From NCBI RefSeq assembly GCF_017939745.1, contig NZ_JAGKQQ010000001.1, positions 5,890,001 to 5,954,000 on the forward strand: DNA of 64,000 nt. Reading direction: 5' to 3'. Of this stretch, positions 6,504-26,353 are shown one piece after another. Each line of letters begins with the position of its first letter. Within the stretch, counting starts at the first letter, position 1. The notes beneath the pieces were generated by a model that searched no databases, was not told the DNA's origin, and saw only the letters and a program-made list of their open reading frames with translations. The translations under genes were made by a program, and so were the position numbers. The stretch comes from Gemmata palustris (lineage in GTDB: Bacteria > Planctomycetota > Planctomycetia > Gemmatales > Gemmataceae).

Positions 6504-6787
6504 ATCGCTGACTTCCGCTGCGGGTCTGTGTGGTTATTCTGGGGGAGCGCCCTCTCCACCGGGGGCAGTTGTGCCGCGACGATATCTCAATCACGGAACT
6601 CGCTCGAAGATCTCGGAAGACTGTCGGTGCAGGCAACCGTTTTTTGGGATCAGCGGTCTGGAAGGGAGAGAGGACCGACCTTCCGGCTGGGTTATTACGT
6701 CGCGGCCCGACATTTGCGGACAAGCAGAGAACGAAGCCAAACTTCAACCCGGACTCCAAAGCCGCCATCGCGGAGCACCGGCGGCTT

Positions 6788-7344: not shown

Positions 7345-8751
7345 TTAGGGGGCAAGGCGAAACACAGGGACAATCAGGTCGCGAGTCTCGTTCGTTCCGG
7401 GATCAGCGGACAAGGTGGTGCGGAAGCGAACTTCTGCACGAAAGCCCTGTCCCTTTGCGGGAGGAACCGTTACTCTGATAGTCCATCGACGATCCGATTG
7501 CTGCTCAGCGATTGCGGTCATCATCGCGCCCGTTGGGGTGACGCCATCAATACCGAACGGCTTGCCCCCCACCACGACGATCTCGCGTTCCACCGGTCCG
7601 ATCACATTCGACGCGATCACCAAACTGTCCGGTTCCACCGTGATTGGGGATCGGAACACAGCTCTGGCGAGGACTCGCACCGAAGGCCGATTCATGCTGT
7701 CGGTGACGACCTGGAGCGGAGTCTCCACCACTCCCGAGTTGGTCAGGCTCCGCCCGCAGAATCGCACCTCGACCTGCAGGTCGCCTTCGTCGCTCCGTGC
7801 GTCCAAAACTCGAACGGTGAAGGCAGGGTGGCTCGAGGTGACTTCTCGGATGCGAATGTCTGGTTTGCGATTCGGGCGCAACTTGAAAACCTTGATTACC
7901 GGCGCATCGGACTCGATCACCCCGAAATCCACAACAAGCGGACGAACCCAGTAATCCGGCTGGACTCTTGCGGTCACCGCTAACTCTTGAAAAAACGACG
8001 GGGGACTAGTGCTTCCGGCTGGTCGGCAGTAAAGCGTGATCCGACCGATCAGGTGGGTTTCGGATTCCCCCGTCTTCAGCGTGACGGGAATCACAAGCGA
8101 CTCCCCAACCTGGATCACACGGCCAGTCACATCCTTCACCGTCGTACAACCGCAGGTGGAACTCGTCTCCACCACTTCCACCGGGAGGGTTGTATTGTTG
8201 GTCAGGGTGAACTCGTGGGTCAGAATCTGATTCTGTTCGACCTCACCGAACTCGTGGCTTGTCGCGTCGAGCCTCAGCCCGCGGGACAACTCAGTCGCCG
8301 ATGCGTAAATCCTCATTTCGACACCGACAGCCAAAACCGCCAGAGCCAAAAGGAAGCAGGCGGGCACCAAGGGCCTGACGCGCTCAAACACGGGGACGCG
8401 GACCCAGCACAAGCCAGACACGAGCAACAGGTCAGCGGCCAGGGTGTACGCCGGGTGAACTGTCAGGTTCCCGAGGCACCCGCAGGACTCTTCCCCTTGG
8501 ATTAACTTGAACGCAGCAACACAGGAGAATCCCGCGAAACAAAGCGTCGCCACGGCGCGAACCGCTCGGGGCCAAACACCAGCGATCAGCCAAGCGCCGA
8601 CGAGGAGTTCGGCACCCACGGACACCGTTTGCAGCCACCAATCGGACGAGATCTTTTGCGGACTGACAGTGGTGTGCGCCAGCGCGTGCGCCTTCATTGC
8701 GCTCGCGAAAAGCATAATTGACCCAGCGACTATGAAGACGACTCTCTTCAT
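7345..8751 (-). CDS. MauE/DoxX-like membrane domain fused to DUF1573
   Basis: A 468-residue protein. Residues 1-150 contain four hydrophobic helices with the signature of MauE/DoxX-type membrane proteins, including a Cys pair in GEESCGCLGN at about 88-97. From about residue 158 on come DUF1573 beta domains (LDATSHEFGEVEQNQ, then STCGCTTVKDV with the CGC motif). DUF1573 domains are extracytoplasmic and often occur in planctomycete and Bacteroidetes envelope proteins. MauE relatives pass reducing equivalents across the membrane to disulphide-handling partners. The Cys-rich protein encoded just downstream could be such a partner. The start at ATG 8751 is supported by the good signal-like first helix. 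Confidence 0.75.
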   Translation of the reverse strand: MKRVVFIVAGSIMLFASAMKAHALAHTTVSPQKISSDWWLQTVSVGAELLVGAWLIAGVWPRAVRAVATLCFAGFSCVAAFKLIQGEESCGCLGNLTVHPAYTLAADLLLVSGLCWVRVPVFERVRPLVPACFLLALAVLAVGVEMRIYASATELSRGLRLDATSHEFGEVEQNQILTHEFTLTNNTTLPVEVVETSSTCGCTTVKDVTGRVIQVGESLVIPVTLKTGESETHLIGRITLYCRPAGSTSPPSFFQELAVTARVQPDYWVRPLVVDFGVIESDAPVIKVFKLRPNRKPDIRIREVTSSHPAFTVRVLDARSDEGDLQVEVRFCGRSLTNSGVVETPLQVVTDSMNRPSVRVLARAVFRSPITVEPDSLVIASNVIGPVEREIVVVGGKPFGIDGVTPTGAMMTAIAEQQSDRRWTIRVTVPPAKGQGFRAEVRFRTTLSADPGTNETRDLIVPVFRLAP

Positions 8752-9174
8752 TTCTCAGGATTCCAGGCTGTCGAAAGAATGTTTTGAGAGGTTAACGGCG
8801 CTGGCAATAATGAGCAAGACTATTTTCCGGAAATCACGTTCAGGCGGAGAGGCGTCGCGAAAGCTGTTGACAAATTTGTACATCGAAGGCGCACCGCGGT
8901 CTTTCAACAGTAACCTTCACTTATGTCAGATAATACACTCACTTTTTCCGCTCTGCTGCACATCGGAGCCGCTCCCACTTCGGGTGTGCCTCCCTTGGAT
9001 TCGTGGCGGTCTGAGATTACTTGGCGGCCGCGAAAATAGTCCAGAAGCCAGCGTAGCGAGCGCCTGCTCCGACAACAAATGTGACGCCTACGCTGCACTG
9101 CTCCAACCAAGCTGTACGTGCCCCCCCGGCGGGGCCGGGGGCAAGTTGCTCAGTAGCACGAGCGCCGCGACGAA
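8752..9174. other. Non-coding gap
   Basis: This 423-bp stretch lies between the divergently oriented DoxX/DUF1573 gene and the phage-like fragment. It is less GC-rich in its first part. No convincing reading frame, RNA gene or clear promoter was recognised. It must contain the promoter of the minus-strand group. Confidence 0.4.
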
Positions 9175-9558
9175 GGATCTGGTGAAGGAAGTCGAGGACG
9201 TAACCAGGGCGCTCCGGGAGCAGGCCGACACGTTCGGCCCAACTGCCGAGCAAGCGACCCTGTACAAGCGCAAGGGGTACGCGAGGAGGCACTCGCCGGG
9301 GCGCAGGTCGAGGTGGGGCGCATCGAGCTCCTGAACAAGTTGGCCGGGGCCGCCGACGCGATCGCGAACGGGGTGGCGTCGGCCGAGCGGCTCACGCTCA
9401 ACAGCCCGGGCACGTTCGATGCGGACAACGCGGCGCAGCGGTTCGGGAGCGACACGCTCGCGAAAAAGACGATCAAGGCCGCCGAGGAAACGGCGAAGAA
9501 CACGAACGCAATGGTCAAGGGGTTGGCGGAGTTGGCGAAGGGGCTCCGATTCAAGTAA
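9175..9558 (+). pseudogene. C-terminal remnant of a phage-like structural protein
   Basis: Two frames together read as one helical protein end. The first (about 9180-9275) gives VEDVTRALREQADTFG and EQATLYKRKGY. After a frameshift near 9275 the next reads EALAGAQVEVGRIELLNKLA and ends KNTNAMVKGLAELAKGLRFK. The low-complexity Ala/Lys helices and the ending resemble the C-terminus of phage tail tape-measure proteins, but this was not confirmed. No intact start exists. It precedes the sigma-like gene by about 40 bases, so both may come from one former prophage-like element. Confidence 0.4.
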
Positions 9559-9596
9559 TCGCCCGTCTCACCCCGTGCCCGGGAGGGCGCCGCAGC

Positions 9597-10157
9597 ATGA
9601 CCGCACCCGAGGTAAACGAACTCGTCGAACGATGGTGGCCCCTCGCCGGCGGGGTGGCGCGCAAGTGGGGCACCCGGTTCCCGTGGCTCGCGCACGATTT
9701 CGAGAGTGCGGCCGGGTACGCTCTGTGGCAGCTCGCGCGGAAGGTGAGTGGGGAGACCGACCCGGAGCGCGGCGGGCGGTTCGCCGGTCTGGTCCGCCAG
9801 GCGGTGCGATGGGCCGTCATCCGGCGACTCGAGCAGGAGCGCGCGAGCAACCCCGGGGCGTTCCAGTCGCTTCCGAGGGCGATCAATCCGGAGACGGGGA
9901 AGGCACGCGACCCGCTCACGAACGCGAAGGGGCGGGAGCGCGAGACCGGGGCCGCGCTCGCCGCTGCCGACGAGCTGGCCACGCTGTTCCGCCGGGCCGA
10001 GCTGTCCGAGCGGTACCGCGACGTGGTGATGCGCCGCTTAGGACACGAGGAGCCACGGGAAGAAATCGCGGCGGACCTGGGCGTCAGCGGAACAAGGGTC
10101 CGGGAAATGGTGACGATCGCGCGGGAGAAGCTCCGGGACGTGGCCGAAGTCGGATGA
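9597..10157 (+). CDS. Sigma-70-like RNA polymerase sigma factor
   Basis: A 186-residue protein. Residues 5-40 (VNELVERWWPLAGGVARKWG, then FESAAGYALWQLARK) resemble sigma region 2. Residues about 137-180 (LSERYRDVVMRRLGHEEPRE, EIAADLGVSGTRVREM, IAREKLR) form a typical region 4 helix-turn-helix. The ATG follows a GGGAGG ribosome binding site at 9581-9586. No anti-sigma gene is adjacent. Short sigma factors of this type in planctomycete elements may drive element genes. A strong hairpin terminator follows at 10183-10208. Confidence 0.75.
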   Translation: MTAPEVNELVERWWPLAGGVARKWGTRFPWLAHDFESAAGYALWQLARKVSGETDPERGGRFAGLVRQAVRWAVIRRLEQERASNPGAFQSLPRAINPETGKARDPLTNAKGRERETGAALAAADELATLFRRAELSERYRDVVMRRLGHEEPREEIAADLGVSGTRVREMVTIAREKLRDVAEVG

Positions 10158-10182
10158 GCGATGTGGTCGAGTGTGAACAGCG

Positions 10183-10208
10183 ACGGGCCGCCCACTGAGG
10201 CGGCCCGT
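10183..10208 (+). terminator. Intrinsic terminator after the sigma-like gene
   Basis: ACGGGCCGCC at 10183-10192 pairs exactly with GGCGGCCCGT at 10199-10208, with a 6-nt loop, followed by GTTCGTTTC. Confidence 0.7.
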
Positions 10209-10285
10209 GTTCGTTTCGAGCTGGTGTTCGCACTTGCACCGGACGCCGGATCGGTCATGCTGGGAGCAGTTCCAGGGGGCGACCG

Positions 10286-11005
10286 ATGACCGAGGCAGAA
10301 TGGCTAGCATGCGGCGACCCAGAGTTGATGATCTTCGACGTGCAGTTCGATCACAACGCAACTTTCGTTCTACGGGAAAGGAAGTTGCGTCTCTTGGGCT
10401 GTGCGTGCTGCCGACTCATGTGGCACGATCTGGTTGCCCCTCACGGCAGGGCTGCAGTAGAGATTGGAGAGCGCTATGCCGATGGCTTAGCGACATGGGA
10501 GGAAACCCGCGACGCACGGCACGCGATAGTGGAACGCCACCCTCCGACCCCGTCACGGCTCGTGGATTTTCAGAGACTACCCTCGGCGGAGCGGGTTGAG
10601 CGCTCTGCCGCCGCGTCCGCTCGCTCTGTTTGCCGCGCAGATGATGGGAGGAACTATGTGGATCACGCCCAAGACGTGATCAGGAAAACGCTGCAAGTCG
10701 CCAGGGACAAAGCATTCGGGTCAGGTGAAGGAGAAACGAGCGAAATCGTGATCAGCCTGATCCGGGACATCTTTGGTCCGCTGTCGTTCCGCTCGGTCAT
10801 CTTCTCCCCTTCATGGCGTACCTCCACCGCGGTCGCGCTCGCTTCGCAGATGTACGAGTCGCGGGACTTCAGCGCGATGCCGATTCTGGCCGACGCGCTC
10901 CAGGACGCGGGGTGCGACAGCGCCGAGGTGCTCGACCACTGCCGCGGACTGGGGCCGCACGTGCGCGGGTGTTGGGTTGTGGACCTCGTGCTCGGCAAGG
11001 AGTGA
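10286..11005 (+). CDS. MTEAEWL-family protein, copy 1
   Basis: A 239-residue protein that starts MTEAEWLACGDPELM and continues with KLRLLGCACCRLMW, the hallmark of a family common in Gemmata genomes with no known function. The C-terminal 70 residues (SPSWRTSTAVALASQMYESR through GCWVVDLVLGKE) match copy 2 almost exactly. They contain Cys and His residues (GCD, DHCRG, HVRGCW) that could bind metal. The N-terminal half is alpha-helical and more divergent. Copy 2 starts three bases after the stop, so the two are a tandem pair read from one message. Confidence 0.75.
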   Translation: MTEAEWLACGDPELMIFDVQFDHNATFVLRERKLRLLGCACCRLMWHDLVAPHGRAAVEIGERYADGLATWEETRDARHAIVERHPPTPSRLVDFQRLPSAERVERSAAASARSVCRADDGRNYVDHAQDVIRKTLQVARDKAFGSGEGETSEIVISLIRDIFGPLSFRSVIFSPSWRTSTAVALASQMYESRDFSAMPILADALQDAGCDSAEVLDHCRGLGPHVRGCWVVDLVLGKE

Positions 11006-11008
11006 ACC

Positions 11009-11710
11009 GTGACCGAAGCGGAATGGCTGACGTACCCAGATCCAAAGCAGATATTGGAGTGGTTACGGGATGGCGTCACATGCCGAAAATTAAGACTATT
11101 CGCCACCGGGAGCGTTCGCCAATTCTGGGATCTTCTCATTGACGAGAGGAGTCGCGAAGCGGTGCGGGTGGCGGAAGAAGTTGCCGACGGTAGGGAGAGC
11201 GAAGATGCACTGGACGCTGCCTACCGCCGAGCATGGGACGCGGTCCCTCAACTCCCGTCAGACCGCTATGCGCATGTTTCTGCGGCACGTGCGGCAGGAC
11301 GAACTGTGCAGAATGACAATGACGCATGGTATGCCAGCGACTTAACCGTGAATGAGACCTTTGGAGTCTACTGCGATTTACGTGAAGAAGAGGGTTCGTC
11401 GGACGACGAGCGGGCTTACCTTCAATGGGTGGGTGAGGCTGAGACAAAACGCCTCCTTTCCGGATTGCTCCGCGACATCTTCGGCAACCCGTTCCGCCCC
11501 GTGGCCTTCTCCCCTTCGTGGCGCACCTCCACCGTTCTGGCGCTCGCGTCTCAGATGTATGAGTCACGGGACTTCGGCGCGATGCCGATCCTGGCGGACG
11601 CTCTCCAAGACGCCGGGTGCGACAGCGCCGACATGCTCGATCACTGTCGCGGTCCCGGGCCGCACGTGCGCGGGTGCTGGGTCGTTGATGTGGTGCTCGG
11701 GAAGGAGTAG
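11009..11710 (+). CDS. MTEAEWL-family protein, copy 2
   Basis: A 233-residue paralogue of the preceding gene with a GTG start at 11009. The N-terminus MTEAEWLTYPDPKQILEWL keeps the family signature, but the middle has drifted: the CACC motif of copy 1 is absent (KLRLFATGSVRQFWD). The last 70 residues are nearly identical to copy 1 while the DNA differs mainly at third codon positions. A terminator-type hairpin follows at 11747-11770. Function is unknown. Confidence 0.75.
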   Translation: MTEAEWLTYPDPKQILEWLRDGVTCRKLRLFATGSVRQFWDLLIDERSREAVRVAEEVADGRESEDALDAAYRRAWDAVPQLPSDRYAHVSAARAAGRTVQNDNDAWYASDLTVNETFGVYCDLREEEGSSDDERAYLQWVGEAETKRLLSGLLRDIFGNPFRPVAFSPSWRTSTVLALASQMYESRDFGAMPILADALQDAGCDSADMLDHCRGPGPHVRGCWVVDVVLGKE

Positions 11711-11746
11711 CGGCGGTACCAATCGCTCGAAATCGTGAAACGACAC

Positions 11747-11770
11747 GGGCCAGGGATTGCTCCCTGGCCC
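11747..11770 (+). terminator. Terminator-like hairpin after the MTEAEWL pair
   Basis: GGGCCAGGGA at 11747-11756 pairs with TCCCTGGCCC at 11761-11770 around a 4-nt loop. The T-tract after it is weak. Between here and the promoter at 12232 no gene was recognised. Confidence 0.6.
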
Positions 11771-12231
11771 GCTCTGTTCCCGTGGTGTCTACTTCTCTTC
11801 CTGGGGCGCGGAACGCTCACGGCAACGCCAGCTCGCCGTGGCCGTCGGTGCCGACCCGAAACGCGCCACGATGAGCCGGCGGGCGACGATGTTCCGTGAG
11901 TGAACAGGGACGCGGGCGTCAGCCTCGGGCCGCGGGCGAAGATCGCTAGGGAAGCGGCGCGACCTGCCCGGGATCGGACCGCAGTGACGCCGGGGATGAT
12001 TGGGATTTCAAATAACACTTTTGAACTGCAGGCAAGAGCAAAATGCGAGAGAACGCAATCTCCACACAGACTATTTTTCACGCATAATTGATTCAATTGG
12101 CACTGCGCATCCCGCGCGCACGGCGCGCACAACAGTACCGCTACAAAGCCTGCGCGCGACACAACTCGCCCGCGCCGCGTTGCCGGCCGGCACTCTGTGA
12201 CTTATGATGAAGAAGGCCGCCGCAACCGAGG

Positions 12232-12260
12232 TTGACAACGGTTGCAACGGTTTTTACAAT
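12232..12260 (+). promoter_or_regulatory. Strong sigma70-type promoter
   Basis: TTGACA at 12232-12237 and TACAAT at 12255-12260 are separated by exactly 17 bp, close to consensus and unusual in such a GC-rich genome. It lies about 110 bp upstream of the three-gene cassette that starts at 12372. The surrounding DNA (about 12000-12370) is visibly richer in A and T than its neighbours. Confidence 0.7.
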
Positions 12261-12371
12261 GTGCGGCTTTTTTGCGTTTTGGCTATTGCGGCAATTACGC
12301 CCTTTTGCATCGTTCACAGCCCCGGTTTGGCTGGTGGCTTCTAACCCAAATGCGGGAAGGATGAACGTGCT

Positions 12372-12764
12372 ATGGCCGACGAACCAGGAGCGGTAGAGAA
12401 GCCAGATGATGCGTCCGATCAGATGGTCATCAATTACATAAAGAGTCACTACTTCCGGGTGATTCACTCGGATGGCGCGTGGGTCGGTCTAACCCCAAGT
12501 CTCGCGGTCAACATCGTTCTTTTCAGTGAGCGGTCCGCTATCCCACATGTGATGACGCACGAGATTGATTCTGCGGGTAATCTAGGCGCCGAAATAGTCT
12601 CAAAACGAGTGTGCAAAGACGGGCTGGTTCGGGAAATGGAGGCGTCCGTTGTCATACAGCCTGAGCGAGTGAAATCGCTGATAACCGTCTTGCAGAATAT
12701 GCTCAGCGAATTGGATCAAATTAACGCACGAGCGAATCCTAAGCCGAGTCGCCCCGATGAATAA
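12372..12764 (+). CDS. DUF3467-like hypothetical protein, cassette gene 1
   Basis: A 130-residue protein. Residues 19-55 (VINYIKSHYFRVIHSDG, AWVGLTPS) and 90-118 (SVVIQPERVKSLITVLQNML) have the alternating strand and terminal helix pattern of DUF3467-type proteins, whose function is unknown. Composition is less GC-rich than neighbouring genes. It follows the promoter at 12232-12260 and overlaps the next gene by eight bases. It is therefore the first gene of a compact cassette with the next two. Confidence 0.6.
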   Translation: MADEPGAVEKPDDASDQMVINYIKSHYFRVIHSDGAWVGLTPSLAVNIVLFSERSAIPHVMTHEIDSAGNLGAEIVSKRVCKDGLVREMEASVVIQPERVKSLITVLQNMLSELDQINARANPKPSRPDE

Positions 12765-13098
12765 GACTAAAATGGTAGTGCGAGCCTTACAAGTTGCCGT
12801 CGTGACTGAGACCCTGTCGCTCCCTCTCGAGCCACAGTTAGTTGCGGCGTCGAACGCGCCAGCTATTACCGTACAGCAAACGGGCAGCTCTCAGCGATTA
12901 GTTGACGTTCGCGCCATTGGGCAGACCACGGACGTTTTTGAAGAAGTTTCTCCGGCTCCGGCCGAGGATGTGCAAGAGGTCATAATCGCTCACACGTCTC
13001 GCGTCGCCACAACTGCTGAGGCGGCACGCGCGTGGGACGCGATTACTAGGCCAACGACTCGTACAATGATAGAGCTACCCTCAGACTTAGAGGGATAA
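12757..13098 (+). CDS. Hypothetical protein, cassette gene 2
   Basis: A 113-residue protein starting MNKTKMVVRALQVAVVTETL. It is rich in Ala, Thr and Val, with no cysteine and no recognisable domain. The sequence AITVQQTGSSQRLVDVRAIG suggests strands followed by a flexible linker and a short C-terminal helix (AEAARAWDAI). The start overlaps the stop of gene 1 by eight bases, and the next gene begins 18 bases after its stop. It may be an adaptor or an antitoxin-like partner; that is a guess from size and operon position. Confidence 0.5.
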   Translation: MNKTKMVVRALQVAVVTETLSLPLEPQLVAASNAPAITVQQTGSSQRLVDVRAIGQTTDVFEEVSPAPAEDVQEVIIAHTSRVATTAEAARAWDAITRPTTRTMIELPSDLEG

Positions 13099-13116
13099 GT
13101 TCTATCGAGTCGCTCA

Positions 13117-13830
13117 ATGGCAGACGAACAATTCTACCGCTCTCTCCCCCTGGAACCGGCCCAGGGGGAAATTTTTTCGGATGTGCCGCACATTCACCTC
13201 CGCCCTCCAGCTGATCAGCGAGCAACGATCAATGTTGTTCGCGAGGCGAATACTTCCAAACCTGATCGTCGCATATTTGGTCTTTATTCCTGGCCGCCGG
13301 CTGCTGGTGAATCGCCCGCTCTTCCCAAATCGTCCGTCCAAGGCGGTGCTTTTCACCTTGAACCACCAAACTCGGAAAATGTCTCAGCCTACTGTCAGAT
13401 AAGTAAAGCGATCGTTCTCAACCACGAGTGCGACCTCGTGCCAGGTCGGGTACCGAAGCATCGTTTCATTGCGATGATTCAACCTCTGTCAACCATTCGC
13501 GAGGATCAGACTGTTGCTACCGATTCTGGCCCGAGACTAGTGCGGGACATCATCCGTAAAAATCAAAACCAAGCAAGGTTCTTCCTGCCGGCTATCGATG
13601 GGCTATTGGAAGAGAGTTTTGTGGACTTGCGGCGGATGAGTTGCGTGGACCCGTGCTTCTTGCGGGATTCCTCAAAGGTAGCTTGCCTCAGCGAAGTTGC
13701 CTTTAAGGCGCTGATGGCGCAGATCATTTTCTTTCTAAGCCAACGCGACCCAGTGGCGCCGCCAACACCAACGCTTGGGGCGCTTCTTCGTCACTGGAAG
13801 AGCAAACTGCTTACCAAGAAGGGTTTGTAG
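13117..13830 (+). CDS. Hypothetical protein with HECDL motif, cassette gene 3
   Basis: A 237-residue protein. QGEIFSDVPHIHLRP at 16-30 and AIVLNHECDLVPGR near 104-117, followed by HRFIAMIQPLS, match a recurrent layout in uncharacterised bacterial proteins: a GEIF-like entry motif, then an I-S/N-x-x-CDL core. The His, Glu, Cys and Asp of the core could form a metal or catalytic site. The C-terminal third is helical and ends in Lys-rich residues. It ends the cassette, just before the attachment-like repeat at 13846. A role in defence or element maintenance is conceivable but unproven. Confidence 0.55.
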   Translation: MADEQFYRSLPLEPAQGEIFSDVPHIHLRPPADQRATINVVREANTSKPDRRIFGLYSWPPAAGESPALPKSSVQGGAFHLEPPNSENVSAYCQISKAIVLNHECDLVPGRVPKHRFIAMIQPLSTIREDQTVATDSGPRLVRDIIRKNQNQARFFLPAIDGLLEESFVDLRRMSCVDPCFLRDSSKVACLSEVAFKALMAQIIFFLSQRDPVAPPTPTLGALLRHWKSKLLTKKGL

Positions 13831-14113: not shown

Positions 14114-15228
14114 ATGAAGAGCCGTCACATGTCTGAAGCGAATTCTACTCCCGGTGCGCCCGGTGGCAAGTCTCCCAAACCGAACAAACCCTACCCCGAA
14201 TTCCCACTGTTTCCCCACGCTGCTGGAGTATGGGCGAAGAAGATCCGCGGGGAGATGCACTATTTCGGCCCGTGGGTGCCCCCGACGGGTCGCTGGCCAA
14301 GTACCTCGAACAGAAGGACGCGCTCCACTCCGGGCGCAAGCCCCGCGAGGATAAGTCCGGGTTTACGGTGAAGGATCTGGCCAACCGGTTCCTGAACGCG
14401 AAACAGAATCTCGTCAACTCCGGCGAACTGGCGCAGCGCTCGTGGACGATTACAAGGCTGCCTGTGCGATCTATATCGATCACTTCGGCAAGAACCGGAT
14501 CGTCGCCGACCTCGGCCCCGACGACTTCGCTGAGCTGCGCGCGACAATGGCCGAGAAGTGGGGACCGGTCACGCTCGGGAACGTGATCCAGCGTATCCGA
14601 GTGGCCTTCAAGTTTGCGAGTGACAATGACCCGATCGACCGCCCGGTGCGATGCGGCCAGGCGTTCAAGCGGCCGTCCCGGAAAGTAGTCCGCGTCGATC
14701 GCGCCAAGAAGGGGCCGAAGCTGTTCGCGCCCGCGGTGATCCACCAGTTACTCGCGGTGGCCAACAAGCCGATGCGAGCGATGATTCTCCTGGGTATCAA
14801 CGGCGAGCTCGGGGACTCCGACTGCGGGCGGCTGCCACAAAGTGCCGTGAACCTTGGGACCGGGCTGATCGACTTCCCCCGGCCCGAAACCGAAAGATGA
14901 GTCCAATACGGATCTGGTGCTCATCACGAAGTACGGGTTGCCGTGGGCCAAGGACAGCGCCGATCAGACGCTCGCGAAAGAATTCGGGAAGTTGCTCCGC
15001 TCACTCAAGCTCGGCGGGCGAACGGGGCTCGGGTTCTACACGCTGCGCCACACGTTCCGCACCGTTGCCGACGAGGCCAAGGATCAACCCGCGGTCGATT
15101 ACGTGATGGCACACGAGTCCGGGCACATGTCGTCCCACTACCGTGAAACGATCAGCGACGAGCGACTCAGGGCCGTCAGCGACTTCGTGCGGAAGTGGGT
15201 ATTCGGGCCAGATGTTGTTGCAGCGTAG
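14114..15228 (+). pseudogene. Tyrosine recombinase/integrase, broken by frameshifts
   Basis: One integrase of the planctomycete type is spread over several frames: 14114 to about 14290 (KKIRGEMHYFGPWV), about 14290-14440 (SLAKYLEQKDALHSGRKPRE, core-binding SAM-like start), 14442-14900 (DDYKAACAIYIDHFGK; LLGIN, DCGRLP with the box I Arg) and 14917-15228 (LVLITKYGLPW; TLRHTFRTVADEA box II; HESGHMSSHYRE with the nucleophile Tyr). The catalytic Arg, Arg-His and Tyr are all still visible. About 25 codons between FPRPETER and the LITKYG strand appear deleted. At least three frame changes and one internal deletion make it inactive. It sits next to the tRNA-Asp half. Confidence 0.85.
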
Positions 15229-16283: not shown

Positions 16284-19200
16284 TCACAGTTCCGCGAAGC
16301 ACGCACGCTGATCGAGAGCCGCGCGAACTTTGGCAGCGAGTACGGCGGGTGAGAACGGTTTAGGAAGGAACTGCTCGGATTCGTGCCGGATCCCGTGCTG
16401 GAGCAGGGCCTCGCCCGTGTAGCCGCTCATAAACAATACTTTGAACCCGGAGCGAACCGCCCGGAGCCGCTCGACGACCAGCCGTCCGTTGATCCCGGGT
16501 AAAACCACGTCGGTCAGGAGCAAGTGGATCGGCCCCGCGTGCGCGGTCGCAACTTTCAAGGCCCCGGCCCCGTCCGACGCCTCCAGGACGGTGTACCCCA
16601 GTTTGGTCAAGATCAGACGGGAGAACACCCTGACGCTTTGCTCGTCCTCGACCACTAAAACAGTTTCCGGGCCACCTTCGGGCCGCGGCGCCACGCTTTT
16701 TGTTTCCTCCCTCTGGACCGCTTCCGGTACGTGAGGGAGATAGATGTCGAATCGGGTTCCGACCCCGACCGAGCTCGTCACGGTCACGTGGCCGGCGCTT
16801 TGTTCGACGATGCCGTAGACGGTAGACAGCCCGAGCCCGGTCCCGCGCCCCGGTTCCTTCGTTGTGAAGAACGGCTCGAAGATCCGCTCCTTCAGTTCGT
16901 CCGTCATCCCGGTTCCCGTATCGGATACGGCCAGTAGCACGTGCGGCCCCGGGCGCGCCCCCGGGTGCTCCGCGGCGTGTTTCGTGCTCAGTTCCACGTT
17001 CCGTATCTCGACGGTCAGTGTGCCGCCGGTCGGCATGGCGTCGCGCGCGTTCACGGCCAGGTTCATCAGCACCTGCTCCATCTGCCCCGAGTCGGCCCGA
17101 ATCGGCCACACGTTCGGACCGGTTACCACCCGCAACTGGACCGCTTCCCCGAGCAGTTGGCGGAGCAATTTTTCTGACCCTTTTACCGTGGCGCTCAAAT
17201 CTAAAATCCGCGTGGCGAGCACCTGCTGCCGGCTGAACGCCAGGAGCTGACGGGTGAGGTCGGCCGACCGGTTCCCGGCGTGCTTGATCTCCTCGACGTA
17301 CTCCCGCAACGGGTTCTCGAGTGCGACTTCTTTCAGCAGGAGCGTACTGTACCCGTTGATCACGGTGAGCAGGTTGTTGAAATCGTGAGCCACGCTGCCC
17401 GCGAGCCGCCCCAGGGCCTCCATCTTCTGGGACTGCCGGAACTGTTCCTCCAAGTGGCGCCGCCGGGTCACATCGGTCTGCACGCCGACAAGGTGCGTCA
17501 GTTTGCCCGCCGCGTCCCGCACCGGGGAAATGGACAGTTCGTTCCAGAACGGGGTACCGTCTTTCTTGTAGTTGAGTAACTCGACGGTACAGGGCTCCCC
17601 GGCGCGAATCGCGGTCCGGAGCCGGGCGACGGCATCCGGGTCCGTGTCCGGCCCTTGTAGGAGCCGGCAGTTCCGGCCCAAAATGTCTTCGGCCGCGTAC
17701 CCCGTCATCCGCGCGAACCCCGGGCTGGCGAACACGACCGGATCGTCCCGCTGTTCGGCGTCGGAGATCAAGATCCCCTGGGTCACGGCCTGAATCGCGC
17801 GGTCCCGGAGTCGCAGTGCGTCCTCGGCCGAGCGGCGCGCCGTGACGTCCTGGGCCAGGCCCAAAAATCCAATGAATCTCCCGTTCTCGTCCAGTAACGG
17901 GGTATTGTGCCACTCGCACGTGATGACCCGTCCGTCCCTGGTCAGGTTGTCGTTGACGGAGTGGGCCGCCATGTCCCCGCTCCGAATGCGCCCGAGCAGG
18001 GTCTCGCCCTCACTTCGGAACGCGGGCGGTGCGAGATCAAACCCGCTCAGCCCAAGCGCCTGATGGCGCGCGTGCCCGAAGATTCGTTCCGCCGCCGGGT
18101 TCCATTCAATGACCCGTGCGTCCGCGTCGAATAACACGTACCCCAACGGCATGCGCTCGATCTGGAGCCGGAGGCGGGCCAGCAGAGCGTCGCGCTCGGT
18201 CGCCAGCCGGTTCCGCTCGGTCACATCTCTGGAAATTCCGATCACCCCGATGACGGCGCCGCTCGCGTCACGGTACGGGGCTTTGGTGACCGAGAACGTC
18301 CGGTGCTGGCCGCCCATGACGAGCGGCTCCTCGCTCGTCACCGCGCGGTCCGCTTTCATCACGAACTGGTCGTTGTCCCTCATGACCCCGGCGCTGCCGG
18401 CCTCGATCAGATCCGCGTCCGCGTGCCCCAGAATCTCCCCCGCGGGCCGCCCAATAAACGAAGCAGTCGCCGAGTTCGCGAGCAGGTACCGGCCGTCCCG
18501 GTCTTTAACGAACACCGCATCTGTAGTCCCTTCGACCACGGCTGCGAGCAGTTCGTTCGTCCGCCTCAGCTCCGCCGCCATGCGCTCCCGCTCGGTCACG
18601 TCTCGCACGATAAGGGTGCAGTACCGCTGCCCTCCCGTCGATCCGAACGAAACCGAGACTTCCAGGGGGAACTCGTCCCCGTCTTGGCGCACCCCGCGCG
18701 TGGGCAACGTCTGTGTCTCGAACCGGACCGGTTCGCTCGCGTCCGTTGCGGGCGAGAACTGGTCGGGGATGAAATCGGTAATCAGGCGCCCCAGCGCGCG
18801 GACCCCGGGGCACCGGAACATCTGCTCCGCGGCCGGGTTGAAAAGGGTTATTCGGCGGTCCAGACCGGTACCGATGATTGCGTCCTGGGCTGATGCGATG
18901 ATGCTCGCCAACTGTTGCGCGGTATGGATCTCCCCGAGCACCCGCCCGACGGCGTCCGGGAGGTAGTCGAGGTACTCCACCGATTTGGTGACGAAGTCTC
19001 GAACGCCGATGCGCAGCGCCCGGATGAGGGTCGCCTCGCTGCTGAACCCGGTTACAAGAATCACCGGAACGTCGTACCCGGCCTCCTTTATCCGAACGTA
19101 GAGGTCCAGCCCGTCAGTGGTATCGGGGAGCTGATAATCCAGGAGGATCAGATCGATTTCGGTGGCCGCGAGCGCCCCCAAGGCTTCGTCCGCTGTGGCG

Positions 19201-19373
19201 GCGACGACGGTCCGATAGCCCGCGTCGTCGAGCCGCACCCGCTCCAACTCGGCGATACCGGGGTCGTCTTCGACGATCAGCACAGTGGCGATCGGGGCGG
19301 CTATTCGGGCAGGTGAAGGGATCACGATCATCAGTAGAGGTCTCTGCGTTCGCACGTGGAGCGTCGTTATCAA
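16284..19373 (-). CDS. Hybrid histidine kinase with LOV (blue-light) domain
   Basis: A 1029-residue soluble kinase. Order: receiver (about 30-145; Asp79, Lys130), PAS (about 155-262), PAS (about 275-385), PAS (about 400-512), LOV (about 525-637), HisKA (His663 in VAHDFNNLL), HATPase (N-box Asn775, DTGTGM, GRGTGLGLS at 842-850) and a C-terminal receiver (Asp955, Lys1005). The LOV segment keeps GRNCRLLQG with Cys569, NYKKDG with Asn601, FWN with Asn611 and GVQ with Gln632, the residues that hold flavin and form the photoadduct in known LOV proteins. The TTG start overlaps the upstream kinase stop by four bases (TTGA); an ATG at 19331 is an alternative. No transmembrane helix was seen. Its phosphorelay target is not evident. 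Confidence 0.9.
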   Translation of the reverse strand: MITTLHVRTQRPLLMIVIPSPARIAAPIATVLIVEDDPGIAELERVRLDDAGYRTVVAATADEALGALAATEIDLILLDYQLPDTTDGLDLYVRIKEAGYDVPVILVTGFSSEATLIRALRIGVRDFVTKSVEYLDYLPDAVGRVLGEIHTAQQLASIIASAQDAIIGTGLDRRITLFNPAAEQMFRCPGVRALGRLITDFIPDQFSPATDASEPVRFETQTLPTRGVRQDGDEFPLEVSVSFGSTGGQRYCTLIVRDVTERERMAAELRRTNELLAAVVEGTTDAVFVKDRDGRYLLANSATASFIGRPAGEILGHADADLIEAGSAGVMRDNDQFVMKADRAVTSEEPLVMGGQHRTFSVTKAPYRDASGAVIGVIGISRDVTERNRLATERDALLARLRLQIERMPLGYVLFDADARVIEWNPAAERIFGHARHQALGLSGFDLAPPAFRSEGETLLGRIRSGDMAAHSVNDNLTRDGRVITCEWHNTPLLDENGRFIGFLGLAQDVTARRSAEDALRLRDRAIQAVTQGILISDAEQRDDPVVFASPGFARMTGYAAEDILGRNCRLLQGPDTDPDAVARLRTAIRAGEPCTVELLNYKKDGTPFWNELSISPVRDAAGKLTHLVGVQTDVTRRRHLEEQFRQSQKMEALGRLAGSVAHDFNNLLTVINGYSTLLLKEVALENPLREYVEEIKHAGNRSADLTRQLLAFSRQQVLATRILDLSATVKGSEKLLRQLLGEAVQLRVVTGPNVWPIRADSGQMEQVLMNLAVNARDAMPTGGTLTVEIRNVELSTKHAAEHPGARPGPHVLLAVSDTGTGMTDELKERIFEPFFTTKEPGRGTGLGLSTVYGIVEQSAGHVTVTSSVGVGTRFDIYLPHVPEAVQREETKSVAPRPEGGPETVLVVEDEQSVRVFSRLILTKLGYTVLEASDGAGALKVATAHAGPIHLLLTDVVLPGINGRLVVERLRAVRSGFKVLFMSGYTGEALLQHGIRHESEQFLPKPFSPAVLAAKVRAALDQRACFAEL

Positions 19374-21532
19374 GGAGCGGAGCCTGCGAGCTCTTGTGAG
19401 CGGGTGTGCGATCCGTCCTCGTCGAGCACCTGTCGCACCTTCAGGAGCAAATCGTCCACCTCGAACGGTTTTTGAAGGAACTCGGCGTCGATCGACGCGA
19501 TGCCGTGGCGGACTTTTGCGTCATCGGTGTACCCGCTCATGTACAAAAGCTTCAGATTCGGCTCCTGCTCGCGGAGAACTTCGGCCAGTTCCCGACCGTT
19601 CATCCCCGGCATGACGACGTCGGTCAATAAAAGGTGGACCGACGACTGGGCCCTGAAGAGTTCGACCGCGTCTTCGCCGCTCGCGGCTTCCAGCACCGTG
19701 TACCCGGCCCCGCGAAGTGCGAGCGCGGCCAGCGCGCGGATCGGGCGCTCGTCCTCGACGAGCAGGATCTTTTCTCCGCTCCGCGGGAGAAGCGGGGCGA
19801 TCGATTTCGACCCGGCGGGCGGCGCCGTTTGAACCGCGACCGGCAAGTGGATGGTGAACGCGGTTCCGGTCCCGATTGTGCTCTCCGCGGCGATGTGGCC
19901 GCCCGACTGCTTGACAATGCCGAACACGGCCGCGAGCGCGAGACCGGCCCCTTTACCGACCCCCTGCGGCGAAAAGAACGGCTCGAAAATCTGAGCTTTT
20001 ACGTCGGCCGTCAGGCCGTAGCCGGTATCGGTAACCGTGAGCCGAACGTACCGGCCCGGTGGCACGTCCGCGCGATCCCCCGTCGGGCCGGCGCCCACCT
20101 CCACCGCGTCCGTGGCTAATGTCAATCGGCCGCCCTGGGGCATCGACTCTCGGGCGTACACGCACAGGTTCATGAGAACTTGTTCGATCTGATCCGGATC
20201 GGCGGTGACGAGTTCGAGCCCCGGGGACAAAGAACAAACCAGCCGAACGCCTTCACCGACCACCTTGGCAAGCACCTTTTGGGCCTCCGTTATCAGCCCG
20301 TTCACGTTCAGTAAGTGGGGGCGGAGCACCTGCAAGCGCCCGAACGCGAGGAGCTGGCGGGTCAGGTTGGTGGCCCGCTCGCTCGCGTCGCGGATCTCCG
20401 CGAGCGCCTCCCCGTCTGGTGTGCCGTCGGGACAGGCGCCGGCCAACAACCGGGTGTAGCCGTTAATAATGGTGAGCAGGTTGTTAAAGTCGTGCGCGAC
20501 CCCGCCCGCCAGTTGGCAGATCGCGTCCATTTTTTGCACCTGGCGCACCTGGTCCCCGAGGCGCTGGCGCGCGGTCACGTCTTGCGCGAGCGCGAGCACG
20601 CCCTGAAACGCACCGGTGGCATCGAACAGCGGCGCGTTGTGCCACTCGCACGTGATCTCGCGCCCGCTTTTGGTGACGTTCTCGAAGAGCCCGTGCGCGT
20701 CCCGATCCCCGGTTGCGAGCCGGGCGAACGTACTTTCGGCGAGCCCCCGCTCTCGTGCGGGGACGATGACCTCGAACGGGCACTTGCCGACCACGTCGGC
20801 GCGCGCGAACCCGAACACCCGTTCGGCGGCGCGGTTCCAGTACGTGAACCGGTTGTTAGCGTCGCTTACGAAGTACGCGAGAGGCAGGTGCTCGATCTGG
20901 AGGGCGAGTTGTGCGAGCGGCGCCGGGCATTCGGACTCGCGACCCGGCTCAGACGTTACATCGGCGTGCAGGCCGACCCATTCCCGTACCGTTCCGTCTG
21001 CGTTCTGGAGGGGTATGCCCTGGACGGACATGCGATGGTACGTACCGTCCGTATCTCGAAGGCGGTACTCGATTTTAAACTCACGCGGGTCCGCGTTCGC
21101 GGACGCCCGGGCGTCCGCGAACGCGGACCGATCGTCCGGGTGAACGGTGTCCAGCCACCTTCGACCACGAAACTCGTCGGGCGCGTGGCCGGTGCTTGCG
21201 GCCCACTCCGGGGGCGCCGTTTCAAACGTTTCGTCTGCGCTCGCCCCCCACACGATCGCGGCCGTTGCGGTAACCAGTGCCTGGTAGCGCTCCGCGTTCG
21301 GCCGCAAGTCGTCCGCGATGCGAACGCGCTCCGCGATCTCGCGGCGCAGTTCGTCGTTGGTCGCAACTAGACTGGCGGTGCGCATCCGGAGGCGCACTTC
21401 AAGGGCTTCGTTCGCGAGCCTCAAACTCGTGGCCGCATGATCGCGACCTCGTACCTGGCGCCGGAAGAGAACGATCACGAGCCCTAAGAGGGCGAGAGAG
21501 GTCACGACCGCAACTATCAACGCGAGTGTCAT
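19370..21532 (-). CDS. Membrane hybrid histidine kinase with degenerate ATPase domain
   Basis: A 720-residue protein: one transmembrane helix (3-23), a coiled-coil linker, two PAS domains (about 80-193 and 205-320), HisKA (His347 in VAHDFNNLL), HATPase and a receiver (Asp638, Lys688). In the N-box the metal-binding Asn is Tyr459 (NLCVYARES instead of NLxxNAR), and the G2 box reads GKGAGLALA, with Ala532 where Gly is usual. The H-box and the receiver are intact. It overlaps the LOV kinase gene by four bases, so both are made from one message. It may accept phosphate or form mixed dimers with its partner rather than autophosphorylate. Confidence 0.85.
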   Translation of the reverse strand: MTLALIVAVVTSLALLGLVIVLFRRQVRGRDHAATSLRLANEALEVRLRMRTASLVATNDELRREIAERVRIADDLRPNAERYQALVTATAAIVWGASADETFETAPPEWAASTGHAPDEFRGRRWLDTVHPDDRSAFADARASANADPREFKIEYRLRDTDGTYHRMSVQGIPLQNADGTVREWVGLHADVTSEPGRESECPAPLAQLALQIEHLPLAYFVSDANNRFTYWNRAAERVFGFARADVVGKCPFEVIVPARERGLAESTFARLATGDRDAHGLFENVTKSGREITCEWHNAPLFDATGAFQGVLALAQDVTARQRLGDQVRQVQKMDAICQLAGGVAHDFNNLLTIINGYTRLLAGACPDGTPDGEALAEIRDASERATNLTRQLLAFGRLQVLRPHLLNVNGLITEAQKVLAKVVGEGVRLVCSLSPGLELVTADPDQIEQVLMNLCVYARESMPQGGRLTLATDAVEVGAGPTGDRADVPPGRYVRLTVTDTGYGLTADVKAQIFEPFFSPQGVGKGAGLALAAVFGIVKQSGGHIAAESTIGTGTAFTIHLPVAVQTAPPAGSKSIAPLLPRSGEKILLVEDERPIRALAALALRGAGYTVLEAASGEDAVELFRAQSSVHLLLTDVVMPGMNGRELAEVLREQEPNLKLLYMSGYTDDAKVRHGIASIDAEFLQKPFEVDDLLLKVRQVLDEDGSHTRSQELAGSAP

Positions 21533-23121: not shown

Positions 23122-23535
23122 TCACTCGGACGGGGCGACGGAACGGTTCCGAACCGAGCGGAACTGGTTCAAAAGTTGAATCAGGACAAACGGGTCCACC
23201 GGTTTAACCAAGTGCAGGTCGATGCCCGCGCCCTCGGACCGGTGGTGGTCACTCACGGTCCCGCGCCCGGTCATCGCGATGATGAACGGGGGGCGGCCCG
23301 ATGCGTCCGCGCGCAGTCGCCGCGCGACCTCCCACCCGTCCATGCCCGGGAGCCCGATGTCCAAGAGCACCACGTCCGGTGTCTCGGTCTGGGCCGAGGA
23401 GAGCGCGTCGGGGCCGCACGACGCAACCCGGGTCGTGTGCCCGCCCAAGGTCAACAAATCGACCCAGGACTGTGCCGTGTCGGGCCGGTCCTCAACAATC
23501 AGAACGTGTAGCGCAGAGCGCGCGGGCTCGCTCAT
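23122..23535 (-). CDS. Receiver-only response regulator (CheY-like)
   Basis: A 137-residue single receiver domain. VLIVEDRPDTAQSW supplies the acidic pocket, VVLLDIGLPGMDGWE the phosphorylated Asp, and LHLVKPVDP the conserved Lys. The ATG at 23535 (MSEPARSALHVLIVEDRPD) is preferred over the longer frame because the domain begins directly after it. There is no output domain, so it probably shuttles phosphate or acts by protein contact. The 909-residue hybrid kinase ends 89 bases upstream in the same direction, so they may form a pair. Confidence 0.85.
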   Translation of the reverse strand: MSEPARSALHVLIVEDRPDTAQSWVDLLTLGGHTTRVASCGPDALSSAQTETPDVVLLDIGLPGMDGWEVARRLRADASGRPPFIIAMTGRGTVSDHHRSEGAGIDLHLVKPVDPFVLIQLLNQFRSVRNRSVAPSE

Positions 23536-23623
23536 GGTTTGGTGGCGGGGCGGAACGTTGGTGGAAGCGATACCGCGGAGTTTATCTCGAGCGCGGACCG
23601 GATACAACAAAATCCCGACGGGC

Positions 23624-26353
23624 TCACGAGTGGGTTCCCGGCGGTCCCGGGTGGAACGGCTCGCCCGTGTCGAGCACCTCACGCACTTTGTGCCCCAGGG
23701 CCTCGGGGGAGAACGGCTTGTGGAGGAAGTTGACGCGCGCGTACTCGACCCCGTGGCGCACCACCGCGTCGTCCGTGTACCCCGACATGAACACGACCCG
23801 GACCCCGGGGCACCGGGCCGCGAGCCGCTCGGCCAGCACGCGCCCGTTCGCACCGGGCATGACCACGTCCGTCAGCAATAGGTCCACCGGGGCCGGGCTC
23901 TCGGCCGCGACCCGCAGGGCCTCTTCGGTTCCGCCCGCGACCAGCACCGTGTACCCGAGTTGCTGGAGCAACCGGTGCGTGAGTTTCCGGACCCGGGCGT
24001 CGTCCTCCACCAGGAGTACAGTCTCCCCACCGACCGGCGCGGCGCCCCCGTCGGCCCTCTCGTCGGCGACCACAGGGGCGTCGAACCCGGGCAGATACAC
24101 CCGAAACGTGGTCCCGCGCTCGGGGGCCGTTTCCACCTCGATGTGCCCGCCCGACTGCTTCACGATGCCGTACACGGTCGCCAGCCCGAGCCCGGTCCCC
24201 TTGCCCGGATCTTTGGTGGTGAAGAACGGCTCAAAAATGTGGTTCTTTACATCGTCCGACATGCCGGTGCCGGTATCCGTTACGGACAGCACCGCGTACC
24301 GGCCCGGAGGGACCTCGCGCCCGTCAGGCGCGCCCCCGACGACCACGTTGCGGGTCTCGACGGTCAGAGCCCCTCCGGTCGGCATCGCGTCGCGCGCGTT
24401 CACGGCCAGGTTCATGAGCACTTGACCGATTTGACCCGGGTCGGCACGAACCCGGAGCACATCGGAGGCCGGAACCGTGACCAGCTCGATGTCCTCGCCG
24501 ATGAGTCGGCGCAACATCTGGGTCACGTCCTGTAGGGCTTCGTTGAGGTCCAGGACTACGGGTTGAAGCACCTGCTGGCGCCCGAACGCGAGGAGCTGCC
24601 GGGTCAGGTCCCGTGCCCGGAGCCCGGCCTCCCGGACCTCTTGGACCATCGGGTACATCGGGTCGTCCGGGGCCAGGGTGGTCAACTGGATGGCGGCGTA
24701 CCCGTTAATAATGGTGAGCAGGTTGTTGAAATCGTGGGCCACGCCCCCCGCCAGTTGCCCCACCGCGTCCATCTTCTGCGACTGGCGCACCTGGGCTTCC
24801 AGGCGCTTGCGCTCGGACACGTCGGACACGAACCCCACCATGCGTTCGGTCAGCGCGCCGCTCGGGTTCGGGATAAAGTGCCCCTGGTCGTGGACCGTGA
24901 CGTAGCTCCCGCCCCGCCCGCGCACCCGGTACTCCATGCGGAACGGGCTCCGCGCCCGCGCGCACCGCTCGGCCTCGTGCTCGAACGGTTCCCGGTCCTC
25001 CGGGTGGACCAGCGCGGTCCAGCCCGCGAGTGCGTCCGGGAGTTCCGATTCCCGGTACCCGAGGGTGCTTTCGGAGTCCCCGCCCCAGGTCAGGCGGTTG
25101 GTCCCCACGTCCCAGTCGTAGAGCACCTGGCCGGTCGCCTTGACTGCGGCCTCGTACCGGGCCTTCCACTCGCCGAGTTCGTCCTCCACGCGCTTGCGCT
25201 CGGTGATGTCCTGGTACACCCCGAGCACCCCGACCACGGCCCCGGTTCCGTCCCGGAGCGGCACCTTGCTGGTGAGCAGAACGGTCCGGGCCCCGTCCGC
25301 CCGGGTAAGCGGCTCCTCGAACCCCAACAGAGCTTCCCCGGATTCCATCACGCGCCGGTCGCACGCGCGGAAGAACTCGGCCTCTGGTGCCGGGGTCCCG
25401 AGCTCGAAGTCGGTGTGCCCGACCGCGGCGGCCGCCCCCGGCAGCCCGTGGTTGCGGGCGAACAGATCGTTGCACCCCAAGTACACCGAGTCCAGGTCCT
25501 TCCAGAACACCGCACACGGGATGTGCGCGATGACCGTGCGCAGGAGCTCCTCGCTCCGCCGCAGAGCTTCTTCGGCGCCCTTTCGCGCGGTCACGTCGCG
25601 CGTGAGGATGGCGATTCCGTCCCCGGCCCGGACGACTTGGTGGTGGAGCCACAAGTTGCGCCCGTCGCCCGTGGTAATCGGGAAGTCCTCTTCCAGGGGC
25701 GCCCCGGTCTCGACCACACGCACGTACTTGTCGAAGAACCCCCCGGTGCGGTTTATCGGGAGCAGCTCGCACAGGCGCTGGCCCACCACCTGTGCCGGGG
25801 CCAGCCCGACCAGGTCCGCGCCGTTCCGGTTCACGTCCGTGAACACGAAGTCCACAACGCTCCCGTCCGGGGCCCGGTCGCACGCGAGGACGTAGACCGC
25901 GTCCAGGCTCCACTCCATCGCGGACCGGAGCGCGCCCTCGACCTCCCGGTGCCGAGTCACGTCCCGGTACGTAACGACCGCGGCCCCGATTCCGGGCTCG
26001 TGGAGCAGGTTGACGCCCCGAGCTTCGAGCCAGCGCCAGGTTCCGCTCCAGTGCCGTACCCGGAACGATTCGGCGAACGCAACGGTCGGGTCCGCCAGGT
26101 GAGCGCCGAATGCGGCCCGGACCCGGTCCCGGTCGTCCGGGTGCAGGTGCCCGAATCCGTCGGCCCCCGTTAGGGTGCCGGGTTCGTAGCCCAGGAGCCG
26201 GTCGCCGGCCGGCCCCGCGTGCCTGACGCCCCCGCCTGGACCGAACAAGATGACCGCGTCGGGACCGCTCTCCGCGCCTCGGCCGTTCTCCAGTGCGTTA
26301 CGATTCGGTTCGATAACGGCCCCCCGGTACCGTCGTTCTGAAATACTTGGCAC
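23624..26353 (-). CDS. Soluble hybrid histidine kinase with four PAS domains
   Basis: A 909-residue kinase without transmembrane segments. PAS domains span about 30-135, 145-255, 270-383 and 400-515. HisKA follows with His540 in VAHDFNNLL, then a complete HATPase (NLAVNARDAM, DTGTGM, GKGTGLGLA) and a C-terminal receiver (LLLTDVVMPGANGR; FLHKPFSPE). The third PAS contains HIPCAVFWKDLD; the second has DVNRNGADLVG. None has the LOV cysteine motif. The start is GTG at 26353, directly downstream of a very A/T-rich region that probably carries its promoter. The sensory input is unknown. Confidence 0.88.
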   Translation of the reverse strand: MPSISERRYRGAVIEPNRNALENGRGAESGPDAVILFGPGGGVRHAGPAGDRLLGYEPGTLTGADGFGHLHPDDRDRVRAAFGAHLADPTVAFAESFRVRHWSGTWRWLEARGVNLLHEPGIGAAVVTYRDVTRHREVEGALRSAMEWSLDAVYVLACDRAPDGSVVDFVFTDVNRNGADLVGLAPAQVVGQRLCELLPINRTGGFFDKYVRVVETGAPLEEDFPITTGDGRNLWLHHQVVRAGDGIAILTRDVTARKGAEEALRRSEELLRTVIAHIPCAVFWKDLDSVYLGCNDLFARNHGLPGAAAAVGHTDFELGTPAPEAEFFRACDRRVMESGEALLGFEEPLTRADGARTVLLTSKVPLRDGTGAVVGVLGVYQDITERKRVEDELGEWKARYEAAVKATGQVLYDWDVGTNRLTWGGDSESTLGYRESELPDALAGWTALVHPEDREPFEHEAERCARARSPFRMEYRVRGRGGSYVTVHDQGHFIPNPSGALTERMVGFVSDVSERKRLEAQVRQSQKMDAVGQLAGGVAHDFNNLLTIINGYAAIQLTTLAPDDPMYPMVQEVREAGLRARDLTRQLLAFGRQQVLQPVVLDLNEALQDVTQMLRRLIGEDIELVTVPASDVLRVRADPGQIGQVLMNLAVNARDAMPTGGALTVETRNVVVGGAPDGREVPPGRYAVLSVTDTGTGMSDDVKNHIFEPFFTTKDPGKGTGLGLATVYGIVKQSGGHIEVETAPERGTTFRVYLPGFDAPVVADERADGGAAPVGGETVLLVEDDARVRKLTHRLLQQLGYTVLVAGGTEEALRVAAESPAPVDLLLTDVVMPGANGRVLAERLAARCPGVRVVFMSGYTDDAVVRHGVEYARVNFLHKPFSPEALGHKVREVLDTGEPFHPGPPGTHS

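Follow-up and report, generated by a model that had tools for sequence, protein, structure and literature searches.

Organization of the locus

The window, a 64,000 nt stretch of the Gemmata palustris genome (contig NZ_JAGKQQ010000001.1, positions 5,890,001 to 5,954,000), carries two adjacent hybrid histidine kinase genes on the minus strand, designated K1 and K2 here (Table 1). In K1, Pfam recognized Response_reg twice and a PAS-type domain four times, together with HisKA and HATPase_c. The listed start codon of K1 is TTG, with an equally possible ATG at residue 15; K2 lies directly upstream and overlaps K1 by 4 bases if the TTG is used and not at all with the ATG. An earlier note on this DNA had placed a LOV domain within a 1029-residue kinase; it gave no strand, and the stretch concerned was found to be coding on the minus strand, where it is open across 116 residues of the K1 frame. 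The complete kinase with receivers at both ends that the note described was recovered by the Pfam matches, and its numbering of Cys569, Asn601, Asn611 and Gln632 was exact when checked, the phospho-acceptor being His663. Sequence, model and family evidence together support the view that this Gemmataceae-type planctomycete has a complete hybrid histidine kinase to which a predicted LOV domain is directly joined.

Table 1. Features of the K1–K2 locus (positions in the window)
Feature	Position	Strand	Basis
K1, LOV hybrid histidine kinase, 1029 aa, REC-PAS-PAS-PAS-LOV-HisKA-HATPase-REC	16284..19373	(-)	ORF list and Pfam
K1 N-terminal receiver, residues 31-133	18975..19283	(-)	Pfam Response_reg
K1 PAS 1, about residues 150-265	18579..18926	(-)	One of four Pfam PAS stretches; boundary set by the authors
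K1 PAS 2, residues 281-388	18210..18533	(-)	Pfam PAS_4
K1 PAS 3, residues 400-510, without the LOV residues	17844..18176	(-)	Pfam PAS and motif table
K1 LOV domain, residues 525-640	17454..17801	(-)	NCBIfam and PDB matches, model
K1 codon of Cys569 (TGC), predicted to form the flavin adduct; the G002 orthologue has TGG (Trp)	17667..17669	(-)	
K1 Asn601 codon, predicted flavin contact	17571..17573	(-)	
K1 codon of Asn611, predicted to contact the flavin; G002 has Ser	17541..17543	(-)	
K1 codon of Gln632, predicted to relay the signal; G002 has His	17478..17480	(-)	
K1 LOV-to-kinase linker; His663, the phospho-acceptor, lies 29 residues after Asp634 of the DVT motif	17385..17474	(-)	
K1 HisKA, residues 654-716	17226..17414	(-)	Pfam
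K1 HATPase_c (residues 761-881); by eye, its N and G boxes are intact	16731..17093	(-)	Pfam
K1 C-terminal receiver, about residues 905-1017	16323..16661	(-)	Second Response_reg stretch; boundary set by the authors
K2, hybrid kinase without LOV, 720 aa, N-box Asn replaced by Tyr	19370..21532	(-)	ORF list, Pfam and motif reading

Identification of the LOV domain

Three LOV motifs were intact in K1, namely GRNCRLLQG (with Cys569), NYKKDGTPFWN and VGVQTD, the first of which is a motif of the GxNCRFLQ type with the adduct Cys, by which a LOV domain is recognized. The four key residues aligned to solved LOV domains with no local gaps, and Asn601, Asn611 and Gln632 shared alignment columns with the two Asn and the Gln of these domains. 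PAS 3 of K1, which served as an internal control, reads GLSGFDLAP in place of GRNCRLLQG.

The earlier note had proposed a profile search against LOV and PAS families, and in such searches LOV-type models and the LOV chains of the PDB were the best matches for the domain. Queried alone against NCBIfam, it matched the YtvA-family model (1.2e-43), the blue-light-activated histidine kinase (LOV-HK) model (9e-42) and PRK13557 (3.2e-40), for each of which K1 lies below the curated whole-protein cut-off. Against the PDB, LOV chains ranked at the top, with 9vf7 (3.8e-43) followed by 6rhg from Chloroflexus aggregans (3.4e-37).

An AlphaFold model of K1 residues 513–650, built with ten aligned sequences, had a mean pLDDT of 92.2. 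Foldseek and VIA-align placed LOV structures at the top of the comparison with this model (9vf7, Z 21.7; 9vf8, Z 21.0); it superposed on 9vf8, the LOV domain of Meiothermus ruber, to 0.5 A across 105 residues, and identity to solved LOV structures was 41–60 % among the 50 matches listed. The model has the LOV-type PAS fold, which is not specific on its own: PAS domains of EAG channels also fitted the model well (Z 19.8–19.9, 27–28 % identity by VIA-align), and for this reason the key residues, rather than the fold alone, identify the domain as LOV. A longer model of K1 had a mean pLDDT of 74.6 and was weak in the linker, with blocks of 45–50 at residues 141–160. Chance occurrence of the signature in an ordinary PAS domain was ruled out by the NCBIfam, PDB and structure matches to LOV domains.

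Kinase half, linker and relation to known systems

By eye, K1 retains intact H, N, G1, F and G2 boxes. For the kinase part, 5idj (7.3e-54) ranked first in the PDB; it is listed as Histidine kinase and is presumably CckA, and 5idm (CckA) matched at 2e-31. K1 has the layout of a LOV histidine kinase, that is, LOV, a helix predicted at low confidence, and HisKA plus HATPase_c with intact boxes. Whole-protein scores were 554.7 bits for NF010076/PRK13557 (cut-off 631), 154.9 bits for the Brucella LOV-HK model NF052306 (cut-off 450), 161 bits for the YtvA family NF052652 (cut-off 250), and 448.7 and 369.7 bits for the CckA equivalogs NF046020 and NF046026 (cut-off 1000). As every one of these cut-offs was missed, membership of PRK13557, LOV-HK, YtvA and CckA was rejected and K1 is filed by domain and layout only.

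The closest solved domain to the K1 LOV is that of the histidine kinase Mrub_1259 of M. ruber (PDB 9vf7 and 9vf8), which belongs to another phylum and has all four LOV residues, as K1 does; identity was 59 % in a comparison covering the LOV domain. The LOV domain of Cagg_3753, a multi-sensor hybrid histidine kinase of C. aggregans (PDB 6rhg, CagFbFP variants), was 54–57 % identical to that of K1, again with the LOV domain compared. NF010076/PRK13557 was the best NCBIfam match, K1 residues 527–1022 spanning positions 36–535 of its 540-position profile, from LOV to C-terminal receiver, to which K1 adds the N-terminal receiver and three PAS domains. The likeness to the cell-cycle histidine kinase CckA (NF046020, NF046026; PDB 5idm) is in the kinase half, with K1 far below the equivalog cut-offs, whereas that to Brucella LOV-HK (NF052306; PDB 3t50 and 6ph4) is in the LOV domain, the best-matching stretch stopping at K1 residue 678, ahead of HATPase. 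In YF1, the engineered fusion of YtvA LOV and FixL (PDB 4gcz; 1.2e-53), LOV runs directly into HisKA/HATPase as in K1 and in the same heptad phase, with a linker 7 residues longer; unlike K1, YF1 presumably has neither receivers nor extra PAS domains.

K1 is of a known kind of predicted photoreceptor; LOV histidine kinases form a large known class. In a 2014 survey of 1390 bacterial LOV proteins, roughly half were histidine kinases, frequently carrying extra PAS domains; its phylum histogram of species with LOV and/or BLUF includes Planctomycetes, with a legend that does not say which of the two (PMC4844311). LOV domains, planctomycetes and histidine kinases were mentioned together in that survey and in a paper on photoactive yellow protein. 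Our literature search found no paper joining LOV histidine kinases as such with Planctomycetes and none joining Gemmataceae with phytochrome, and the matches for Gemmata obscuriglobus with blue light bore titles on other topics.

The 29-residue spacing from Asp634 to His663 recurred in 57 of the 63 LOV-type sequences described below. The six that did not give it were three sequences with an extra PAS between, two with HEIN rather than HDFNN, which the search pattern did not recognize, and L006, whose domain row starts late and whose DVS motif falls outside the pattern window. The spacing is not LOV-specific, as a non-LOV kinase of the window, K3, has it too. Natural LOV kinases can have either sign. 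When K1 was aligned with YF1, the stretch from LOV to HisKA showed just one gap, 7 residues long, so that the K1 linker is exactly one heptad shorter and in the phase of YF1. Variants of YF1 with 7n linkers are reported to be blue-light repressed (PMC6798134), and by this analogy K1 is predicted to be kinase-active in darkness and to be repressed under blue light, a sign to which we give even odds. The solved LOV–FixL chimeras share one FixL part and so do not lend independent support to the phase rule. The linker phase converts the architecture into a signed prediction (dark-on).

Predicted photoreceptors elsewhere in the genome

Six LOV domains at 1e-30 or better were found in the 9.23 Mb genome; all six retain the Cys and four retain all four residues. 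A bacteriophytochrome histidine kinase (PAS_2, GAF, PHY, HisKA, HATPase) was also present (locus L118, G000:C1:2662778-2663320). No match to the photosynthetic reaction centre (Photo_RC) was detected in the genome, in a search that gave a match in Synechococcus elongatus among 14 control genomes, which agrees with the non-phototrophic lifestyle assumed in the earlier note. BLUF likewise gave no match in the genome (control match in Escherichia coli). The photolyase family PF00875 reached 23.3 bits, below the cut-off of 26.6, in an ORF that Pfam left unmatched at 1e-5, and was treated as chance; the rhodopsin family search matched none of the control genomes and was thus uninformative.

The sixth LOV gene, at 5458-6537(+) of locus L121 (G000:C1, about 3.844 Mb), looks broken, a reading made partly by eye. 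Its match begins at LOV residue 29, the frame stops shortly past the HisKA motif, and kinase-like sequence continues beyond the frame end in an overlapping ORF of another frame. The region looks duplicated, because a nearby ORF (7883-8866) starts almost identically. The broken gene and two other LOV genes lie within about 26 kb. At 9357-13583(-) of the same locus (about 3.848-3.852 Mb) is a LOV hybrid kinase whose N-terminal domain is of the ethylene-receptor type (Pfam ETR1_N, 4.2e-34), and a LOV hybrid kinase of a related genome, G002 (L133, 4882-8565(-)), has the same D...Y..IP...CGTTH pattern. Both have a complete four-residue LOV; the combination of an ethylene-type and a blue-light input domain in one protein would be noteworthy.

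Distribution and variation of LOV domains in relatives

Among 95 Gemmataceae genomes, at least 29 matched LOV at 1e-30 and at least 28 had a Cys-bearing LOV, counts for which at most 48 candidates were scored in larger genomes. The two counts differ because the only match in G017 (L020) lacks the motif, reading GQTPRILQG. In a sample of the phylum, at least nine of 294 genomes, including that of the window, matched at 1e-33, with at most 15 candidates per genome scored and counted by score rather than motif.

The filter for the LOV set (at least 80 columns and 49 % identity) passed 65 rows, from which two non-LOV PAS domains were removed by motif; it removed no row with a LOV-type Cys motif and one borderline row without the Cys, L178. 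The resulting 63 different LOV-type sequences had the Cys in 58 cases and all four residues in 43. Leu stood in place of Gln in nine of the 58 Cys-bearing sequences. Around 350 glutamine-deficient LOV domains, mostly with Leu or Ile, are reported, one natural case of which signals (PMC9098866).

In the genome G110, three of the five LOV matches lack the adduct Cys (L160, Ala; L161, Pro; L162, Leu) and keep both Asn and the Gln; from their sequences these three are candidate natural photoreduction or redox LOV sensors. Ala also replaces the adduct Cys in L135 of G013, a genome of the same genus. The LOV tree (114 columns) was weakly resolved, with 15 of 62 inner branches well supported, and parsimony on it required the Cys to have been gained or lost at least four times, a count that gives no direction. 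The Cys was taken as ancestral because LOV domains of other phyla carry it. The Cys-less row of G002 was basal in the tree, beside the window row, which is read as an effect of the distant outgroup; were the rooting correct, the change could have run either way.

An orthologue with replaced LOV residues

Orthologues of both K1 (71.7 % identity over 1009 aa) and K2 (65.1 % over 699 aa) were present and adjacent in G002. The LOV domain of the K1 orthologue reads GRNWHLLQG and carries C569W, N611S and Q632H, the change from Cys to Trp requiring one base (TGC to TGG). Between the window and G002 the LOV domain was 74 % identical (dN 0.146, dS 0.61) and the whole of K1 72 % identical (dN 0.183, dS 0.75). 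The LOV domain of G002 stays constrained and is not decaying.

Exchange of the Gln for His alone is reported to have abolished light responses in YF1 and NmPAL, and His is also found among natural glutamine-deficient LOV domains (PMC9098866); LOV domains without the Cys are reported to be able to signal via photoreduction (PMC5645311). As both Cys and Gln are changed, the G002 protein is predicted from its sequence to be light-blind. Because this orthologue lacks the Cys, one Asn and the Gln, the locus can persist without light input. A predicted sighted and a predicted blind orthologue in the same gene order would provide a natural test of the role of a LOV domain after loss of its photochemistry.

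Proposed mechanism and alternative explanations

On the basis of its residues, fold, architecture, kinase motifs and linker length, all taken from the sequence or the models, K1 is best explained as a flavin-binding LOV hybrid histidine kinase that would be switched by blue light via the Cys569 adduct (probability about 0.87); the flavin, photocycle, sign and output we infer. In the proposed mechanism the LOV domain would bind a flavin nucleotide, and blue light would induce a bond between Cys569 and the flavin. Protonation at N5 would then pass via Gln632 to the beta-sheet, and the signal would leave the domain via the helix that runs from Asp634 into the HisKA dimerization helix. A change in helix twist would toggle the CckA-like kinase from its kinase to its phosphatase state or back, with phosphate travelling to the C-terminal receiver of K1 and on to a downstream partner. 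The N-terminal receiver and the three further PAS domains would supply other inputs. Blue-light two-component signalling in a planctomycete with no detected reaction centre is thereby placed on firm sequence and model ground. What is new here is the co-occurrence of six LOV domains and a phytochrome in a genome with no reaction-centre match, the G002 orthologue with replaced residues, the sign predicted from the linker and the possible pseudokinase K2.

The constraint on the G002 domain, which has lost its Cys, indicates that something besides the adduct can be selected, and the LOV domain of K1 might accordingly bind flavin and serve above all to sense redox state or oxygen, with light as a side input and the Cys photocycle not the selected function. 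The four or more changes between Cys and no Cys on the poorly resolved tree, and the retention of both Asn and the Gln in L160, L161 and L162 of G110, are in keeping with such a role, but the Cys is kept in all six LOV domains of the genome, with all four residues in four, and in 58 of the 63 relatives, and we consider this explanation unlikely. The loss of three of the four key residues from so close an orthologue could also mean that the K1 domain is a LOV-derived PAS that no longer binds flavin and whose motif is a relic, as in the related species. This is very improbable given that the four residues and all three motifs are intact in K1 itself and that the model is so similar to solved LOV structures among the matches listed.

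A further proposal adds to the light-switched LOV kinase rather than replacing it. K1 and K2 could form one light-gated unit, in which K2 as a pseudokinase is phosphorylated or held by K1 and the output runs via K2. The second Asn of the N-box binds Mg-ATP. The N-box region reads NLAVNARDAM in K1, NLCVYARESM in K2 and TLCVYAREAM in the K2 orthologue of G002, so that CVYARE of both K2 proteins stands against AVNARD of K1; both keep the His and the receiver, and the G2 box is GAGLAL in K2 of the window and GAGLGL in that of G002, against GTGLGL in K1. The Asn-to-Tyr replacement common to K2 and its orthologue suggests from these two sequences that K2 may be a pseudokinase. The direct succession of K2 and K1, overlapping with the TTG start, and the adjacency of the pair in G002 also favour a unit; on the other side, the comparison covers two K2 orthologues, the overlap disappears with the ATG start of K1, and neighbouring genes often merely share a transcript. 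We therefore advance the unit tentatively, with the odds against it. Slightly more doubtful is its extension to a two-gene light switch, in which K1 would drive or restrain the conserved pseudokinase K2 and the light input of the related species would have been disconnected (C to W, N to S, Q to H), the constrained domain presumably reading another signal. If true, this would be a natural example of a gene pair that stays as it is while its photoreceptor becomes a sensor of something other than light.

Other genes in the window

Several further genes of the window were assigned by eye. K3, a third hybrid kinase of 909 aa, lies at 23624-26353(-), and an ORF with receiver-like sequence at 23122-23853(-). 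An overlapping pair at 31295-33390(-) resembles a LuxR-type regulator and a sensor kinase. At 14442-15228(+), two ORFs in different frames resemble the halves of a tyrosine recombinase (LRHTFRT ... MAHESGHMSSHY) and possibly represent a decayed integrase.
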